A program made the position numbers and the translations under genes. Positions 3,752-64,000 of a DNA stretch of 64,000 nt are shown in pieces. Source of the DNA: Microbacterium caowuchunii (GTDB lineage: Bacteria > Actinomycetota > Actinomycetes > Actinomycetales > Microbacteriaceae). Each line of letters starts with the position of its first letter. Position 1 is the first letter of the stretch. The DNA is taken from assembly GCF_008727755.1 (NCBI RefSeq), contig NZ_CP044231.1:1674001-1738000 (forward strand), read 5' to 3'. Under the pieces are notes generated by a model. That model was not told the origin of the DNA. It was given only the letters and a program-made list of their open reading frames with translations, and did no database searches.

Positions 3752-5990
3752 CCCGGTACACGTCGTACACCGCGTCGATCCGGCGCACCGCGTTCAGGAC
3801 ACGGTCCAGGTGCACCGTGTCGCCCATCTCGAACACGAACTTGCTGAGGGCGAGCCGGTCGTTGGAGGTCGACACGGTGGCGGAGAGGATGTTCACGTGG
3901 TGCTCGCTGAGCACCCGCGTCACGTCGCTGAGCAGGCCGGAGCGGTCCAGCGCCTCGACCTGGATCTGCACGAGGAAGACGCTCTTGGACGTCGGGGCCC
4001 ACTCGACCTCGATCATCCGGTCCGGATCGTCCATCAGCGAATTCACGTTGGTGCAGTCCTTGCGGTGCACGGACACACCGCTGCCGCGGGTGACGAAGCC
4101 GATGATCTCGTCACCGGGAACGGGCGTGCAGCACTTCGCCAGCTTGACGAGGATGTCGGGGGCGCCGCGCACCAGCACACCGGAGTCGCCGTCCCTGGGC
4201 ACCCGGCTGCGGCCGATGTGCGGGATGTCGATGGGGCCGGTCGTGGTGTCCTGGTCGGCGACGAGCGCGGTGACCTTCTCCAGCACCGACTGGGTGGACA
4301 CGTGCCCCTCGCCCACCGCCGCGTAGAGCGCGGACACGTCCTCGTACCGCAGGTTCTGGGCGACCTGGGTGAACGTGTCCTGGCTCATCAGGCGCTGCAG
4401 CGGCAGGTTCTGCCGTCGCATCGCGCGGGCGATCGACTCGCGGCCCTGCTCGATGGCCTCCTCGCGGCGTTCCTTCGTGAACCAGCCGCGGATCTTGTTG
4501 CGGGCCCGCGTGCTCTTGACGAAGCCGAGCCAGTCCTGGCTCGGGCCGGCATCCGGGTTCTTGGAGGTGAAGACCTCGACGACGTCGCCGGAGTGCAGCT
4601 CCGACTCCAGCGGGATGAGGCGCCCGTTGACCTTGGCACCCATCGTGCGGTGGCCGATCTCGGTGTGCACGGCGTAGGCGAAATCGACCGGGGTCGCCCC
4701 GGCCGGGAGACCGATGACCCGCCCCTTGGGCGTGAAGACGTAGACCTCTTTCGCGCCGATCTCGAAGCGCAGCGAGTCCAGGAACTCGCCGGGGTCGGCC
4801 GTCTCGGCCTGCCAGTCCGAGATGTGCGCCAGCCATGCCATGTCGGCGTCGACCGCGCGCGGGTCGGACTTCCCGCCCGACATCCGCTCCTTGTACTTCC
4901 AGTGCGCCGCGACGCCGAACTCGGCCTGCTGGTGCATCTCGTTGGTGCGGATCTGGATCTCGACGGTTCGACCGCCGGGGCCGATCACCGTCGTGTGCAG
5001 CGACTGGTACAGGTTGAACTTCGGGGTCGCGATGTAGTCCTTGAACCGACCGGGCAACGGTGTCCAGCGGGCGTGGAGTGCGCCGAGCACGGCGTAGCAG
5101 TCGCGGACCGTCGAGACGATCACGCGGATGCCGATGAGGTCGTAGATGTCGTCGAACTCGCGTCCGCGCACGACCATCTTCTGGTACACGGAGTAGAGCT
5201 GCTTCGGTCGTCCCGCGATGCGCCCACGGATGCGGAGTTCTCGCAGGTCCTCCTCGACCGCGTCGATGACGTTCTGGAGGTACTGCTCGCGCTGAGGCGT
5301 TCGCTGCTTCACCAGACTGTCGATCTCGACGTACAGCTTGGGGTGCAGGACGGCGAAGGAGAGGTCCTCCAGCTCGGACTTGATCGCCTGGATACCGAGG
5401 CGATGCGCCAGCGGCGCATAGATCTCGAGGGTCTCCGTCGCCTTCTTCGCCGCCTTCTCGGGGGGCACGAAGCCCCACGTGCGCGCGTTGTGCAGCCGAT
5501 CGGCCAGCTTGATGACGAGCACGCGGATGTCGCGGGACATCGCCACGATCATCTTCCGGACCGTCTCCGCCTGAGCGCTCTCGCCGTACTTGACCTTGTC
5601 GAGCTTCGTGACCCCGTCGACGAGCATGGCGACCTCGTCGCCGAACTCCGCGCGCAACGCGTCGAGCTCGTAGCCGGTGTCCTCCACCGTGTCGTGCAGC
5701 AGCGCAGCGGCGACCGCTTTGGGGCCGAGCCCCAGGTCTGCGAGGATCTGCGCGACCGCGAGCGGATGCGTGATGTAGGGCTCGCCGCTCTGCCGCTTCT
5801 GCCCGGAGTGGGCCTTGTCGGCGACGGCATAGGCGCGCTCGATGATCGCGAGGTCGCCCTTGGGGTGGTGGGTCCGCACCGTCCGTACGAGCTTGTCGAC
5901 GTCGTCGCGGCGCGCCGCCCGGGAGAAGATGCGCGGGATCAACCGGCGCAGTGACGAGCTCTGCGCGCCCGTGGAAACGGTCTCCGCCAT
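3738..5990 (-). CDS. rel: Bifunctional (p)ppGpp synthetase/hydrolase Rel
   Basis: Makes and degrades the stringent-response alarmone (p)ppGpp in the cytosol. In the 750-residue protein the HD hydrolase domain shows LLHDTVEDT near residue 97 and ADRLHNA near 164. The synthetase domain follows with [13 protein letters not shown] and [16 protein letters not shown]. The sequence GRFKDYIA contains the RFKD form of the RXKD motif of bifunctional Rel enzymes. Next come a TGS domain ([19 protein letters not shown]), a Cys-containing zinc-finger-like segment ([14 protein letters not shown]) and a C-terminal ACT domain. Domain order and length are complete. It has a candidate promoter at 6023-6028 and its 3' end overlaps the AbiEi-like gene. 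The apt gene that often sits between secF and rel in actinobacteria is absent. Confidence 0.97.
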
Positions 5991-6022
5991 GCCTCGATCA
6001 CCGCCCTTCGCAGAATCTCTTC

Positions 6023-6028
6023 AGTCTA
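6023..6028 (-). promoter_or_regulatory. Candidate -10 element for rel
   Basis: On the minus strand TAGACT lies 33 bases upstream of the rel start, in the 65-base gap after secF, giving an untranslated leader of about 26 bases. The -35 region is not recognisable. Confidence 0.45.
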
Positions 6029-6055
6029 CGCGTGTCCCCGCCGCCCGGTTGCCGC

Positions 6056-7045
6056 TCAGACCGGCGCCCCCGCGCGCTCGCGCGCCTCGAGCACCCGCTG
6101 GTCGCTGGCGAGGATCTTCGGCTCCCGCTCCCGGAAGAACGCATAAAGGGGTGCGGCCACGAAGACGGTCGAGTACGCGGCGACGATCGTGCCGACGAAG
6201 ATCGACAGCGAGATGTCGGTCAGCGTCTGCGCACCGAGCCAGAAGGCGCCGATGAAGAGGATCGCCCCGGTGGGCAGGATCGCCACGACGGTCGTGTTGA
6301 TCGAGCGGATCAGCGTCTGGTTCACGGCGAGGTTCACCGACTCACCGAACGTCCGCGCGGAGATCTCCCCGTCGTCCCGGGTGTTCTCCCTGATCTTGTC
6401 GAACACGACGGTCGTGTCGTAGAGCGAGTAGGACAGGATCGTGAGGAAGCCGATCACGGCTGCCGGCGAGATGGGGAACCCGCAGAGCGCGTAGACGCCG
6501 ACGGTGATGATGAGCACATCCACAACGCCGACGATCGCGGCGGCGGACATCTTCCAGGTGCGGAAGTACAGCGCCAGGATCAGGAAGGTGAGCGCGAGGA
6601 AGATCGCCAGCCCCCACAGGGATTGCCGGGTGACGTCCGCACCCCACGCCGGTCCGATGAACGAGGAGGTGACCTCCGTCGAGTCCACACCGTAGGTCTC
6701 CGCGAGGGCCGCGGACACCGCCTGGGTCTCCTCGGGGGTCATCTGATCCGTCTGCACCCGGACGGCGCTCTCCCCCACGGTGGCGACCTTGGTGGTGGCA
6801 TCGGGGACGACCGATTCCACCGCAACGGTGGCCAGCGACTGGTCCGGCGAGGAGACGCCGGTCACGGTGAACTGGGATCCCCCGGTGAACTCGATCGAGA
6901 ACTGCACCGGACGCACGAGCGGCACCAGCGCGGAACCGATCACGAGCAGCGCCGCGATGATGAACCACAACCGCCGGCGCGGGATGAACGGGAAGGAGGT
7001 CTTCCCGGTGTACAGGTCGTTGCCGAGCTGGCCCATGGAGCGCAT
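6056..7045 (-). CDS. secF: Protein translocase subunit SecF
   Basis: Integral membrane partner of SecD that uses the proton gradient to help move proteins through SecYEG. The 329-residue protein has a first membrane helix near residue 30 and an extracytoplasmic loop with IEFTGGSQF, the SecF signature. A five-helix C-terminal bundle follows, including YSLYDTTVVFDKIREN. The start overlaps the secD stop by one base (TGATG), so translation is probably coupled. An ATG three codons inside is an alternative start. It is the last gene of the yajC-secD-secF operon. Confidence 0.97.
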   Translation of the reverse strand: MRSMGQLGNDLYTGKTSFPFIPRRRLWFIIAALLVIGSALVPLVRPVQFSIEFTGGSQFTVTGVSSPDQSLATVAVESVVPDATTKVATVGESAVRVQTDQMTPEETQAVSAALAETYGVDSTEVTSSFIGPAWGADVTRQSLWGLAIFLALTFLILALYFRTWKMSAAAIVGVVDVLIITVGVYALCGFPISPAAVIGFLTILSYSLYDTTVVFDKIRENTRDDGEISARTFGESVNLAVNQTLIRSINTTVVAILPTGAILFIGAFWLGAQTLTDISLSIFVGTIVAAYSTVFVAAPLYAFFREREPKILASDQRVLEARERAGAPV

Positions 7046-8775
7046 CAGTCGCGTCCTGCCTTCGCGTCGACCGAGGCGCTGTCGCGCTCGGAGGTGGAAT
7101 CCGTACCCGCATCCAGCGCGGCGCGCTTGCGTTCGGCGATCGTCTGTCGACGCTCCGCCTCAGCCCGTGAGCGGGCCGCTCGACCGGTGGTGGCCACCGG
7201 GGCGCGGAACTGCGCGCGCCCGCGGTAGACGGCGCCGAGTGCCTTCGGGTCCATGCCGGAGAGGGGATGACCGGAACCGAAGAACTTCGTGCGTGCCAGC
7301 AGCTGCATGACCGGGTGCGTGAAGAGGATGAAGATGACGATGTCGATCACGGTGGTGAGCCCCAGCGTGAACGCGAAGCCCTTCACCGTCGCGTCCGCGA
7401 GGATGTAGAGCACCACCGCGGCGAGGATGTTGATCGACTTGGAGATGTAGATCGTGCGCTTGGCGCGGCTCCAGCCGTCCTCGACGGCGGAGGTGATCGA
7501 CTTGCCGTCGCGCAGCTCGTCGCGGATGCGTTCGAAGTAGACGATGAACGAGTCCGCGGTGAAACCGATGGAGACGATCACGCCGGCGACACCGGCCAGC
7601 GACAGGCGGAAGCCCATGCGCCAGGCGAGGATGCACAGCGCGATGTAGGTCAGTACGCCCATCACGACCAGGGACGCGATGATCACGCCACCGAGGGCCC
7701 GGTAGACGATGAGCGAGTACACGGCGACGAGCACGAGACCGATGAGACCGGCGACGAGGCCGATCATCAGCTGCTGCGAGCCGAGCGTGGCCGAGATCGT
7801 GTCGGAGCTCTGCACCGTGAAGCTGAGCGGCAGTGCGCCGTACTTCAGCTGATCGGCGAGGACCTGAGCGCTCTCCTGCGTGAAGGAGCCGGTGATCTGG
7901 GGCTTGCCGTCGGTGATGATCGCGTTCATCGACGGTGCCGAGAGCACGTCGCCGTCCAGGACGAACGCGAACTGGTTCAGGGGCGTGGACAGCGGGTACA
8001 GGCGCTGGCTCACCTGGGTGAACGCGTCCGTGCCCTTGTTGTTGAAGACGATGTTGACCGCCCAGGCGCCGGAGGTCTGCACCATACCGGCGCTCGCGTC
8101 GGAGATGGAGTCGCCGTCGAGCTCGACCGGGCCGAGGATGTACTTCGCGGTGCCCGTCGCGTCGCAGGCGATCACCGGCTGGTCGGCCGGGGCGTTGGCC
8201 GGGTCGTTCGTCGGGTCCGCGCAGTTGTAGGCCTGGAACTCGGCCTGCAGCTTCGGGGTGATCCAGCTGACGTCGCTGCCGCTCGTCGGTGAGGCGGTGG
8301 GCGTCGACTCGAGTCCCGGATCGGCGGTCGGGTAGGGCGTCGCCGTCCCGTCCTCGCCGATGAACGCGCCGCTGACCTCGCCCGAGACGAACAGCACGGC
8401 GCGCAACTGCAGCTGCGCGGAGGCCTGGATCCGCTGCCGCGTCTCCTCGTCCGCCTCGCCCGGGATCTGGACGACGATGTTCTTGCCGCCCTCGGTCGTG
8501 ACGTCGGCCTCGCCCACACCCGTCGCGTCGATGCGCTGACGCATGATCGTGACGGCCTGATCCATCTGCTCCGCGCTGGGTGCGCTGCCGTCGGCGGTCT
8601 GCGCCTCGAGGATGATCTGCGTCCCGCCCTGCAGATCGAGCGCGAGCTCGGGAGACCACGAGCTGCGCTCGAAGACGTAGACGCCGAGCGCATTCACGCC
8701 GAAGAGCACGGCGGTGATGGCCAGGAGCCCGATCAGGGCCTTCCAGGCATGCCTAACAGGGGTGGGTGTCGCCAC
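7045..8775 (-). CDS. secD: Protein translocase subunit SecD
   Basis: Resistance-nodulation-division type membrane protein that completes Sec-dependent export. In its 576 residues the N-terminal helix is followed by LALDLQGGTQIILEA, the SecD P1 signature. A large periplasmic-side domain contains a Ser/Thr/Pro-rich low-complexity stretch near residues 145-170. Then come six membrane helices with GFTADSFIVYFERIRDE. The C-terminal tail of about 75 residues is cytoplasmic and basic, longer than in enteric SecD but common in actinobacteria. The GTG start at 8775 is 30 bases downstream of yajC, and the stop is shared with the secF start. Confidence 0.97.
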   Translation of the reverse strand: MATPTPVRHAWKALIGLLAITAVLFGVNALGVYVFERSSWSPELALDLQGGTQIILEAQTADGSAPSAEQMDQAVTIMRQRIDATGVGEADVTTEGGKNIVVQIPGEADEETRQRIQASAQLQLRAVLFVSGEVSGAFIGEDGTATPYPTADPGLESTPTASPTSGSDVSWITPKLQAEFQAYNCADPTNDPANAPADQPVIACDATGTAKYILGPVELDGDSISDASAGMVQTSGAWAVNIVFNNKGTDAFTQVSQRLYPLSTPLNQFAFVLDGDVLSAPSMNAIITDGKPQITGSFTQESAQVLADQLKYGALPLSFTVQSSDTISATLGSQQLMIGLVAGLIGLVLVAVYSLIVYRALGGVIIASLVVMGVLTYIALCILAWRMGFRLSLAGVAGVIVSIGFTADSFIVYFERIRDELRDGKSITSAVEDGWSRAKRTIYISKSINILAAVVLYILADATVKGFAFTLGLTTVIDIVIFILFTHPVMQLLARTKFFGSGHPLSGMDPKALGAVYRGRAQFRAPVATTGRAARSRAEAERRQTIAERKRAALDAGTDSTSERDSASVDAKAGRD

Positions 8776-61072: not shown

Positions 61073-62107
61073 TCAGCGGTAGCGTCGCTCCACGAGCGGC
61101 GATACGCGCACGGCGATCTCCTCGCCGATCGACCCCATCGCCTCGGCGAGGTCGGTCGGCGAGGATGTTCCTTGCCCCATGATCCGTACCCGCTGTCCCA
61201 CCGCCGCGCCCGGCCAGGGCTCGACCAGGCAGTCCATCTCGTCGATCCGCAGCATCCGACGCGGTCCGTCCGGTGTCCCCACGCTCATCCGTCCGCCCAG
61301 CACGGACGGCAGTCCATCGGCAGAGCCGATCCCGATGCGGACGCCCTCATCACCGAGGGCCAGCACGGGAGCGTCCAGGGTCGCGATCGGCTGCACGCCG
61401 AGGACGTCCTCGCCCGGTCCCCCCGCCGACCGGATCCCGTAGCAGAACGCCCCCACCCGCACCATGTCGTACCGGAATCCGGCGCGGTCGAACGACGCGG
61501 CGCTCGCCGCCAGATGCCGCAGCGTGCGCTGCCGCCCCCGGGCCTCCACCACCCGCAGTGCCGCCTCGTAGCGGGCACGGGCCGCATCGTCCTCGGCATC
61601 CGAGGCCTCGGCGATGTGGCTCCACACGCCGATGATCTCGACCACACCGGCCGCGGCGAGCTCGGCCGCACGTTCGACGAACGCCGGCCACTGCTCCGGC
61701 CGGACGCCGTTGCGGTGCAGCCCGGTGTCGATCTTCAGGTGCAGCCGAGCCGTCCGCCCCGCGGCTTCCGCGGCGAGGGCGATCTCCTCGAGGGTGTCCG
61801 CGTCGCCGACGCCGAGGTCGAGCGCTGCGTCGATCGCACGGCGGGCCTCCTCCACGCCGAAGACCATCCAGACGAAGATCCCGGCGTCGGGTCCGGCGGT
61901 GGCCCGCACGCGGAGACCGGTCGCGACGTCGAACGCGCCGAACCAGCGCACGCCGTGCCGGGCCGCATGGGTCACGATGGGCTCCAGTCCATGCGCGTAG
62001 GCGTCGTCCTTCACGACGAGCATGAGCTCGGCCGGGGCGACGCGCTCGCGTACGACATCCAGGTTCCGCTGGAACGCCGCGAGGTCCACGGTGAGCACTG
62101 CGGTCAT
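61073..62107 (-). CDS. Alanine-racemase-like protein A: PLP barrel intact, C-domain Tyr lost
   Basis: A 344-residue fold-type III PLP protein. The barrel is complete: VVKDDAYAHG carries the Schiff-base Lys33, HLKIDTGLHRNGV is the next signature, and MVRVGAFCYG the PLP-phosphate region. The C-terminal domain is shortened: the GEGVSYG entry segment is missing and the GYADG loop, which holds the second catalytic base, reads GSADG with Ser262 in place of Tyr. Alone it should be a poor racemase. The start overlaps the stop of the companion racemase-like gene (ATGA), which has the reverse defects, so the two probably act as a heterodimer. Substrate unknown; a D-amino acid for the cell wall is likely. 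Last gene of the murT-gatD operon. Confidence 0.8.
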   Translation of the reverse strand: MTAVLTVDLAAFQRNLDVVRERVAPAELMLVVKDDAYAHGLEPIVTHAARHGVRWFGAFDVATGLRVRATAGPDAGIFVWMVFGVEEARRAIDAALDLGVGDADTLEEIALAAEAAGRTARLHLKIDTGLHRNGVRPEQWPAFVERAAELAAAGVVEIIGVWSHIAEASDAEDDAARARYEAALRVVEARGRQRTLRHLAASAASFDRAGFRYDMVRVGAFCYGIRSAGGPGEDVLGVQPIATLDAPVLALGDEGVRIGIGSADGLPSVLGGRMSVGTPDGPRRMLRIDEMDCLVEPWPGAAVGQRVRIMGQGTSSPTDLAEAMGSIGEEIAVRVSPLVERRYR

Positions 62108-62781
62108 GAGGAGTACTCCCGTCTCGTGTGCAGTCCCACCCCGGTGACGATCTCGAGCGGTCGCAGCCCGCTCTCCCGGCCCCAGTCCCGAACGCTCGGC
62201 GCGCGGCCGGCCGGGTCCCCGAAGTAGACGACCTCCGCGCCCCGGTCGACGGGGGCGTCGGCGATGTCCACGACGCAGACGTCCATGGCCACGCGGCCGA
62301 TGACGGGATGGCGGCGGCCGGAGATCGCGACATGGGTGCGGCTCCCGAGTACGCGCGGGATCCCCTGTGCGTAACCGCCCGTCACGAGGGCCACACGCGT
62401 GTCAGCGGCGGCGCGATGGAGGTAGCCGTACGAGACCCCTTCCCCAGCCCGCAGGTCCTTCACGGCCAGCACGGTGCCCATGAGGGTCATCGCCGGAGCG
62501 GTGTCCTCCTCGAGCCCGAACACCGCCGATGCCGCCGCCGTCGCGCTGCCTTCCGTCCGCACGCGCGGGGACGCCGTCCCGGACCGCGCGACATCGGCGG
62601 GGTCGGCGAGGACATCGAGCCCGGTGGCGGCCAGGACCGCCTCCGCGACGGGGCCGAAGCCATGGCCGCGTGCGTCCCGGCGCAGGTCCGCGACGCCGTC
62701 CTCGCCGCCGGTCACCGCGCGGATGTTCGCCACGATCGCCGCGAGCGAGATGCGGACGCGAGGTGCGGCGGCGGGGTGCAC
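62104..62781 (-). CDS. Alanine-racemase-like protein B: barrel collapsed, C-domain with catalytic Tyr intact
   Basis: A 225-residue relative of alanine racemase. The N-terminal part aligns only with the first strands: LRRDARGHG stands where VKADAYGHG is expected, so the PLP Lys is Arg34 and the following Tyr is Arg38. Most of the barrel (some 170-200 residues) is absent. From about residue 95 the beta domain is intact: AGEGVSYGYLH, the GYAQGIPR loop with Tyr137, and HPVIGRVAMDVCVVDI. It therefore has what protein A lacks. The start is taken as GTG 62781, eight bases after the gatD stop; no strong ribosome-binding site is seen and the N-terminus is the least certain point. Regular reading frame and overlaps with both neighbours argue against a decaying pseudogene. 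Confidence 0.75.
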   Translation of the reverse strand: MHPAAAPRVRISLAAIVANIRAVTGGEDGVADLRRDARGHGFGPVAEAVLAATGLDVLADPADVARSGTASPRVRTEGSATAAASAVFGLEEDTAPAMTLMGTVLAVKDLRAGEGVSYGYLHRAAADTRVALVTGGYAQGIPRVLGSRTHVAISGRRHPVIGRVAMDVCVVDIADAPVDRGAEVVYFGDPAGRAPSVRDWGRESGLRPLEIVTGVGLHTRREYSS

Positions 62782-62789
62782 GGTCGTGA

Positions 62790-63545
62790 TCAGAGCTGGA
62801 TGGCGGTGAACCGCTTGCCGGTGGCGAGCCGCTGGATCTCCGCGCGCGCGGCGGCGGCGTGCACATCCACGGCTGCGGCTTCGGCGCCCGGGCGGTAGTC
62901 CGCGCCGTGGCGCTTCAGCGCGCGCTCGAGGAGGGCGTCGGCCAGCTGCGGATTGAGCGGCAGCACGGGCCCCTGCACGTTGGTGGCGTACACACCGTCC
63001 TGGTGGAGAGTCTCGTAGCCGTCCGCGAACCCGCCGTTGCCGGCGACGACCCGCCCGTAGCGCACGCCCGGGTCCGCACCGGCGGACAGGGACCACTCCG
63101 ATGCGTGGTCCTCGAAGCCGACGAGGCGCCCGTCCGGCGTCTCCGCGACGACATAGCCCACGCGGCGCTGACGGGTGCGCGCGACCCTGGCGGGAACGAG
63201 CCCGAGACCGGCCACGGAGGTGCCGTCGAGCAGGTCGATGCCCTCGCTCAGCAGTTCCGCTCCCCCGCCGACGGCCAGCACCGCGGCGCCCGCGGCGATC
63301 TGGGCGGCGAGCCACTCGCGGCGGGCGGACAGGTCTTCCCGCACGGTGCGGAGGGCGGACAGCGGACCGTTGCCGATCACGATCACGTCCGCGGATGCGG
63401 GAGCGTCCTGGCCGATCCCGACCATCACGACATCGGCGTGGTGCCCGGCGTACCCGGCACGTGCGGAGAGGACCTCGACGTTGCCGCGGTCCCCCGTGAT
63501 GCCGAGGAGGTCGGGGTACAGCTGCACGATCGTGATCGTGGTCAT
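62790..63545 (-). CDS. gatD: GatD/CobQ-like glutamine amidotransferase lacking catalytic Cys and His
   Basis: A 251-residue class I amidotransferase-like protein of the GatD (CobQ2) family, normally the glutaminase partner of MurT in lipid II amidation. The N-terminus LYPDLLGITGDRGNVEVL matches the family. Where active GatD has a Cys nucleophile (LAxC), this protein has LAVGGGAELL with Gly93, and where it has TYxHGP it reads TNVQGPVLPLNP with Gln191. GGC codes Gly93, so a single-base reading error is possible for that site but not for both. It should not hydrolyse glutamine. ATG 63545 overlaps the murT stop (ATGA). Confidence 0.85.
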   Translation of the reverse strand: MTTITIVQLYPDLLGITGDRGNVEVLSARAGYAGHHADVVMVGIGQDAPASADVIVIGNGPLSALRTVREDLSARREWLAAQIAAGAAVLAVGGGAELLSEGIDLLDGTSVAGLGLVPARVARTRQRRVGYVVAETPDGRLVGFEDHASEWSLSAGADPGVRYGRVVAGNGGFADGYETLHQDGVYATNVQGPVLPLNPQLADALLERALKRHGADYRPGAEAAAVDVHAAAARAEIQRLATGKRFTAIQL

Positions 63546-64000
63546 CGGCGTGCCACCTCCTGATCGCCGTGGCCGAGCAGGCGACGTCCGATCATCATGA
63601 GCTCGTAGTTGACGAACCAGATCTGGTGGCCGCTCGTGGTCGGCGGGAACTTCCGCATCAGCGCGACGGCCTTCTCCATGTCCGGTTCGACGGTGCCGAT
63701 CGGGATTCCGGCGTACGCGAGGCGGGTGGCGATCTGGTGCGCCTTCTCCCCCGCGACGACATCGACGTGGTCGAGACCGCTGAGGTCCACGTCGTACAGC
63801 CAGGAGACGTCCGGCGTGCCCTCGTCGATGGCCATCAGCAGGCGCTCGGGAGGGCCGTCGAGCGCGTCGACGTTCAGTTGCAGGCTCGGCCCGTTCTTGA
63901 ACATGACGAACTCGACCTGCTCGGAGCCCTCGCGGCGCAGCGGCACGAGCTCACCACGTCCGTAGGCGGGCGCCATCCGGGAGAACCCGTCGGCGGCGGC
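63542..64000 (-). CDS. murT: MurT-like Mur ligase, C-terminal part only (5' end outside window)
   Basis: The last 152 codons of a MurT-family protein, covering the C-terminal DUF1727 domain. The hallmark DVSWLYDVDL, including the Asp proposed to assist catalysis in MurT, is present. Elsewhere it is divergent: the usual KNPAG motif reads KNGPS, and the end motif around NYTA is FVNYELMM. In the known complex MurT activates the alpha-carboxyl of D-Glu in lipid II with ATP. The gene overlaps gatD by four bases. The N-terminal ATP-binding domain and zinc ribbon cannot be checked here. Confidence 0.8.
   Translation of the reverse strand, partial: AAADGFSRMAPAYGRGELVPLRREGSEQVEFVMFKNGPSLQLNVDALDGPPERLLMAIDEGTPDVSWLYDVDLSGLDHVDVVAGEKAHQIATRLAYAGIPIGTVEPDMEKAVALMRKFPPTTSGHQIWFVNYELMMIGRRLLGHGDQEVARR

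Follow-up and report, generated by a model that had tools for sequence, protein, structure and literature searches.

Two adjoining genes for proteins related to alanine racemase (Alr) were analysed in a stretch of 64,000 nucleotides from Microbacterium caowuchunii (contig NZ_CP044231.1, forward-strand positions 1,674,001 to 1,738,000), referred to below as the window and used for all positions unless a locus is named. The pair forms the end of an operon-like run on the minus strand, in the order MurT, GatD-like protein, B and A. Gene A (61073..62107, minus strand) encodes an Alr-like subunit of 344 aa with a full barrel for pyridoxal 5'-phosphate (PLP), from which the catalytic Tyr loop is absent. 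Gene B (62104..62781, minus strand) encodes a short Alr-like subunit of 225 aa, read from a GTG start picked by inspection. The stop of B and the start of A share the letters ATGA, a 4-bp overlap (62104..62107, minus strand) that may indicate translational coupling; when the nearest plausible start was taken, the same 4-bp overlap recurred in 35/42 loci of the comparative sample described below. The initial annotation had reported two adjoining, overlapping genes without naming the strand, and this arrangement was confirmed. The source genome (G000) is a single contig of 3,262,719 bases with a complete Alr (L001) at another site, so the pair is not its housekeeping enzyme.

Profile searches gave a full Ala_racemase_N domain (PF01168) in A at 171.6 bits, and the C-terminal domain of A was weak, scoring 21.2 bits against PF00842 (Ala_racemase_C) where the cut-off is 25. 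B contained a full PF00842 domain (109.1 bits) and no match to PF01168; it consists of approximately three beta/alpha barrel units and the full C-terminal domain. The TIGR00492 cut-off of 168 bits was reached by neither protein (A 131.4, B 96.3). Single-chain predicted models of A and of B each fit Alr. The alignment used for folding B was composed mostly of loci chosen by a DNA pattern for D-x-R-A-D-A, so that its invariant Arg34 is partly a product of that selection; the counts over 42 loci given below are independent of the pattern.

Active-site residues and their division between the two proteins

The motif VVKDDAYAHG of A contains Lys33 (codon 62009..62011, minus strand), which corresponds to the PLP lysine, Lys39 of Geobacillus Alr. 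The matching motif of B is LRRDARGHG, in which Arg34 (codon 62680..62682, minus strand) replaces that lysine. Further along, A reads GSADG and B reads GYAQGIPR. The initial description of B, with Arg for Lys, most of the barrel gone, and GYAQGIPR and the whole C-terminal domain retained, agreed with the open reading frame and the domain matches. For A, the description of Lys33 and a full barrel held, but the identification of GSADG as the lost catalytic Tyr loop did not, the true loss being the VSYG segment.

In the Alr fold the second subunit contributes Tyr265' (catalytic), Tyr284', Arg290', Arg309' and Met312' (Geobacillus or S. aureus numbering). When the 1XFC chain (M. tuberculosis Alr) was aligned, VSYG fell at 271, GYADG at 290, the Arg after GYADG at 296 and the Arg of GRxxMD at 316. 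GYADG as the catalytic Tyr loop was ruled out by these positions of GYADG and VSYG; by alignment, GYADG carries Tyr284 (Geobacillus numbering) and the catalytic Tyr265 lies in VSYG. Tyr271', Tyr290', Arg296' and Arg316' are listed as entryway residues of the second subunit of 1XFC in the part of PMC3485190 that was available. The VSYG segment is wholly absent from A, between about residues 251 and 253 (61349..61357, minus strand), and is kept in B, where Tyr118 (codon 62428..62430, minus strand) takes the position of Tyr265. The absence of the entire segment from A and its presence in B make a stronger case for complementary halves.

The division of residues was followed in 60 regions taken around A-like matches from a draw of 150 Microbacteriaceae genomes of 85 genera. 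Four were set aside: L101, in which B runs off the contig, L106 and L123, which carry a second kind of pair (A'/B', below), and L125, which carries a fusion. The remaining 56 regions are two-gene tandems, comprising 42 split loci, in which the upstream copy is without Lys39, and 14 complete tandems.

At the split loci Lys39, Tyr43, Lys129, Arg136, His166 and Arg219 were each present in 42/42 A. Tyr265 was present in 0/42 A (a gap in 41/42, Gly in 1/42) and Met312 in 1/42, while B had both Tyr265 and Met312 in 42/42. Arg290' was found in 42/42 B and 6/42 A, and Arg309' in 41/42 B and 3/42 A. No real Lys occupies the position of Arg34 in the 42 B; the lone apparent one, in G085, falls upstream of the recognisable B. 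Both copies of the 14 complete tandems have Lys39 and Tyr265, and no non-complementing loss of these two residues was seen among the 56 tandems. Judged from the alignments, the partition of Lys39 and Tyr265 is far from chance, recurring as it does in 42/42 such loci.

Six split loci are intermediates (G147, G008, G080, G053, G123 and G091): the lysine of their upstream copy is replaced by Ser, Thr or Gly, and 181-247 residues separate its position from GYADG; this distance is 246 in a complete enzyme and about 83-141 at the other split loci. G126 is a possible seventh, with 222 residues over the same interval and an unsure N-terminal alignment. A third Alr-like gene was seen near the B-A pair of L231 (7008-7940, plus strand); its lysine is replaced by Gly (VGADAWGHG), and more of its barrel is left. 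Phe at the Tyr284 position of B, mostly as GFADG, was observed in L099, L100, L103, L104, L105, L112 and L117.

Co-occurrence, fusions and the composite site

At the thresholds used, 101 of 119 Microbacterium genomes had both genes and 18 had neither; A and B were separate matches in 99/119. The strict co-occurrence that the initial annotation had proposed to look for was borne out, since 101/101 carriers of A also had B, and the opposing case, a close relative with just one of the two genes, was sought in the 119 genomes and not seen. In G238 the two genes are joined as an in-frame B-A fusion of 541 codons (L312 3949-5571, minus strand), the C-domain of B coming first and the barrel of A after it. 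In G239, a 68%-complete assembly, B is present and A lies in two pieces out of frame. All 18 pair-negative genomes still carry an Alr-type match, and G161 and G196, both counted among them, each have a second, weak one.

The variability of B outside its conserved residues, the loss of most of its barrel, the 18/119 genomes with neither gene and the interruption of A in G239 (though in an incomplete assembly) would all suit a B that is a decaying duplicate at a locus drifting to loss. This explanation is nevertheless extremely improbable, as B holds Tyr265 and Met312 at 42/42 loci, accompanies every A found in the genus, has no internal stops among the matches listed, and in one species forms a fusion with A.

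A second pair, read in 6 of 8 genomes of another genus, has A' ahead of B', retains the substrate-gating Tyr354 (discussed below) and shows the same partition; the residue counts for Tyr354 and the partition omit one of six A', that of G270, which is also without VSYG. A'-B' occurs as a single polypeptide in two genomes, G073 and G136, of a genus other than that with A'/B'. Natural fusions are therefore known in both gene orders, B-A and A'-B'. The separate and fused forms were recorded at L285 349-2235 (minus strand), L284 325-2712 (minus strand), L106, L123, L280 and L296-L300.

Apart from its fusion (169.7 bits), G136 (99% complete) has no strong Ala_racemase_N match, the others scoring 62.7 and 22.5, and there is no match to the D-amino-acid aminotransferase TIGR01121; none reached the TIGR01121 cut-off in the 10 other genomes searched. 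G073 has a further Ala_racemase_N match of 147.7 bits besides its fusion. In G140 and G077 no match other than A and A' exceeds 70 bits, and the TIGR01121 matches are far under the cut-off. If such cells form D-Ala by racemisation, complementary halves would be what does so, and this comes nearest to functional evidence here.

In Alr the active site is built across subunits, with the catalytic Tyr coming from the partner chain, as sections of PMC3485190 and PMC3245724 describe. Because the complementary loss is found in 42/42 loci, the genes co-occur, fusions exist in both orders and the sole strong match of G136 is a fusion, it is very likely (a probability of roughly 85 to 90%) that A and B constitute an obligate heterodimeric, PLP-dependent racemase of the Alr fold with one composite site. 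From the partition, its conservation, the co-occurrence and the fusions, all read in the sequences, we infer the physical A-B complex and its activity. A would supply the whole barrel side with the PLP lysine, and B the C-terminal side with the catalytic Tyr. One of the two sites of the dimer would work and the other would have decayed on both sides, B having lost most of the barrel and A the catalytic loop. A single site formed by the Lys of A and the Tyr of B had been proposed initially and is upheld by the 42/42 loci, the co-occurrence and the fusions; the Tyr named at that time, Tyr137, was not the right one, the catalytic residue being Tyr118.

Three points count against a composite site. 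The loci were sorted by Lys39, so that the result is conditional: where the upstream Lys is gone, the downstream Tyr265 is gone in 42/42. The Tyr284 position of B is Tyr in 35/42 and Phe in 7/42, so part of the inner layer can vary. No published biochemistry of any pair member was found.

It is also conceivable that A acts as a homodimer, with another base or in another PLP reaction, and that B is a regulatory pseudoenzyme. The PLP-side residues checked are indeed kept in 42/42 A, and dead paralogues that regulate are on record for other enzymes (PMC5201418, in part). A regulator would not, however, need the residues that face the PLP of the partner. B keeps these (Y265, M312 and R290 in 42/42, R309 in 41/42), and A is largely without them; the fusions and the G136 case likewise favour a shared site, and an active A homodimer is accordingly improbable.

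The proposed A-B heterodimer has the fold, the PLP lysine and the cross-subunit site of Alr (PF01168 plus PF00842, TIGR00492), a homodimer with two sites, according to the portions of PMC3485190 and PMC3245724 drawn on. It differs in that the half-sites are on two complementary proteins, leaving one site per dimer; the two catalytic residues are not on one chain, A being without Tyr265 and B without Lys39. Other differences from Alr are the change of Tyr354 to Asp or Glu in A and the TIGR00492 scores of both proteins, which stay under the cut-off. S-adenosylmethionine decarboxylase (AdoMetDC) of T. brucei is likewise an enzyme that works only when complexed with an unequal paralogue, the prozyme (PMC5201418, in part). 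In contrast to the prozyme, B is proposed to donate catalytic residues and is reduced to 225 aa, and the split is seen at least twice within a single bacterial family. No heterodimeric or half-site-complementing enzyme of the Alr family was found, judging by titles and abstract openings, in literature that lay mostly outside subscription papers. If the composite site is real, the pair would be a natural example, and a very clean one, of a homodimer turned into an obligate heterodimer by dividing one active site.

In a tree of N-domains (88 rows), the A sequences formed two clades, and next to each stood a separate clade of complete downstream copies from the tandems; A' and the fusions fell inside housekeeping Alr. 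By the approximately unbiased (AU) test, a single clade of all split forms was rejected (p=3.8e-6), a single clade of A was not quite rejected (p=0.0554), and a clade of A' with the fusions was not rejected (p=0.56). At least two origins of the split are supported by these trees and four are possible. The C-domain tree (128 columns, long branches) does not resolve the source of B. The stages that survive in one family would include two complete copies, an upstream copy with the Lys lost and the barrel still long, a reduced barrel, a lost VSYG, and halves that are fused.

Substrate

The chain that carries the PLP lysine also carries the substrate-gating position of Tyr354, which is occupied in A by Glu329 (codon 61121..61123, minus strand). 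Among the A of the split loci it is Asp in 24 and Glu in 17, hence acidic in 41/42, with a gap in the remaining one; Asp or Glu is also present in 14/14 downstream complete copies. Tyr354 is kept in 13/14 upstream complete tandem copies and in the 11/11 housekeeping Alr that were counted. Lysine-type racemases are also without Tyr354, as stated in the part of PMC3485190 available. The replacement of Tyr354 by an acidic residue suggests a basic side chain, and the substrate is probably a basic diamino acid: ornithine (Orn), 2,4-diaminobutyrate (Dab) or lysine. A substrate other than Ala had been put forward in the initial annotation, and the Asp or Glu at this position and the gene neighbours give that proposal backing. 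Close named homologues of A bear the database name 'alanine racemase'; despite this name, A alone should not be an alanine racemase, to judge from its residues.

Lysine racemase (Lyr) and the broad-specificity racemase Bar share the Alr fold, have Tyr354 replaced (Thr391 and Ala393) and act on basic amino acids, according to the same portion of PMC3485190. They are homodimers, and the replacement is Thr or Ala there and Asp or Glu in A; the identity of A in structural alignments to 4dza and 4dyj is 18%. PddB, a 2,4-diaminobutyrate racemase, acts on Dab and comes from an actinobacterium; unlike the pair it is PLP-independent, being DapF-like and without cofactor, and the available part of PMC8225329 connects it with poly-D-Dab, not with peptidoglycan.

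The pair could instead be a heterodimeric alanine racemase, as its fold and nearest annotations would have it; the Ala-type A'/B' pair also suggests that a split is compatible with D-Ala supply. This is unlikely in view of the complete housekeeping Alr elsewhere in G000, the Asp or Glu in A where 11/11 housekeeping Alr have Tyr354, and the 18/119 Microbacterium genomes in which the pair was not found and which still carry an Alr-type match.

Neighbouring genes and a possible role in the cell wall

Upstream of B in the same operon, a GatD-like protein is encoded at 62790..63545 (minus strand). It is without the catalytic Cys, having Gly93 in its place (codon 63267-63269, minus strand), and the usual His is changed too (TNVQGP). 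MurT lies at 63542..64000 (minus strand) and is truncated by the end of the window, the whole open reading frame being G000:C1:1737545-1738936. The catalytic Cys is absent in 78/88 GatD examined across the family and kept in 10; all of the GatD in pair or tandem regions (28/28) are without it. G054 and G066 have both kinds of GatD, and in each the Cys-less copy adjoins the pair.

Of the 42 split regions, 27 had MurT and GatD as neighbours, 10 had an ATP-grasp protein (PF14397) together with a CofE-like one (PF01996), none had both modules and 5 had neither; two of those 5 have a CofE-like protein alone. The mutual exclusion of the modules gave p=2e-6 by Fisher's test. One of the 27, L090, has distant MurT (97 bits) and GatD (54 bits) matches and a weak CofE-like match. 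At 14 more Microbacterium loci the figures were 3 for MurT/GatD, 10 for ATP-grasp with CofE-like, 0 for both and 1 for neither, and in 13/14 of these the modules lay between rpoD and parE. It looks as though one module has been replaced by another beside one racemase. Such exclusion points to a module that acts on the amino acid product of the racemase.

ATP-grasp and CofE-like genes without MurT/GatD were seen at the pair locus in L305-L310, L315-L317, L069, L073, L075, L077, L080-L083, L091 and L095, and in L311 they lie at 6754-7785 (minus strand) and 5721-6416 (plus strand). The locus of G239 also has ATP-grasp and CofE-like matches. There (L319) two ATP-grasp matches stand back to back beside B and the interrupted A, at 4601-5593 (plus strand) and 4407-3415 (minus strand), with 47% and 38% identity to that of L311.

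In Enterococcus faecium an aspartate racemase gene adjoins that of the ATP-grasp ligase Aslfm, which adds the D-amino acid to the peptidoglycan bridge. The genes here likewise place a racemase next to an ATP-grasp protein; the racemase family and the amino acid are different, and the ATP-grasp protein belongs to PF14397. In group-B peptidoglycan the bridge begins at the D-Glu alpha-carboxyl. MurT/GatD amidates this same carboxyl, as stated in the accessible part of the literature. Wall diamino acids in Microbacteriaceae include D-Lys, L-Lys, D-Orn and Dab (PMC7033078, in part), and those of Microbacterium are given as D-Orn, L-Lys or Dab in the available part of PMC10757982.

A role in the wall is proposed because the pair stands mostly beside MurT/GatD or an ATP-grasp protein. 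It is plausible, and slightly favoured, that the interpeptide bridge of group-B peptidoglycan obtains its D-diamino acid from the pair; the pairs would then be candidates for the origin of the D-Orn, D-Dab or D-Lys bridge in group-B walls. A fuller reading, which we offer tentatively and rate as rather doubtful, is that Microbacteriaceae have repeatedly made obligate one-site heterodimers out of homodimeric Alr-fold racemases, for a D-diamino acid and for D-Ala, and that the pair together with an interchangeable module (MurT with a glutaminase-dead GatD, or ATP-grasp with CofE-like) makes D-Orn, D-Dab or D-Lys and attaches it to the D-Glu alpha-carboxyl of group-B peptidoglycan. That the Cys-less MurT/GatD would act as a ligase is a bold guess.

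Several results run counter to the wall role. GatD is absent from the fetched regions of the 14 complete tandems, and no GatD match was obtained in 8/12 pair-positive Microbacterium genomes searched, with G239 counted as positive. The role rests on inference, since no paper treating the pair was found. The same 8/12 genomes rule out a strict coupling between the pair and MurT/GatD. In literature mostly outside subscription journals, judging by titles and abstract openings, no paper was found on MurT/GatD in Microbacteriaceae with such a pair, and none on a racemase that would supply group-B peptidoglycan with its D-diamino acids.

Pair-negative Microbacterium were scattered over several parts of a MurE tree, in which the pair carrier G239 is mislabelled as negative. 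The M. lacticum cluster has L-Lys walls. Six pair-negative Microbacterium (L242-L247) have a very different MurE, whose relatives are the MurE of M. flavum, M. dextranolyticum and M. hominis, three species that belong to this cluster according to part of PMC10757982. Two of the six, G167 and G229, have a second strong MurE match.

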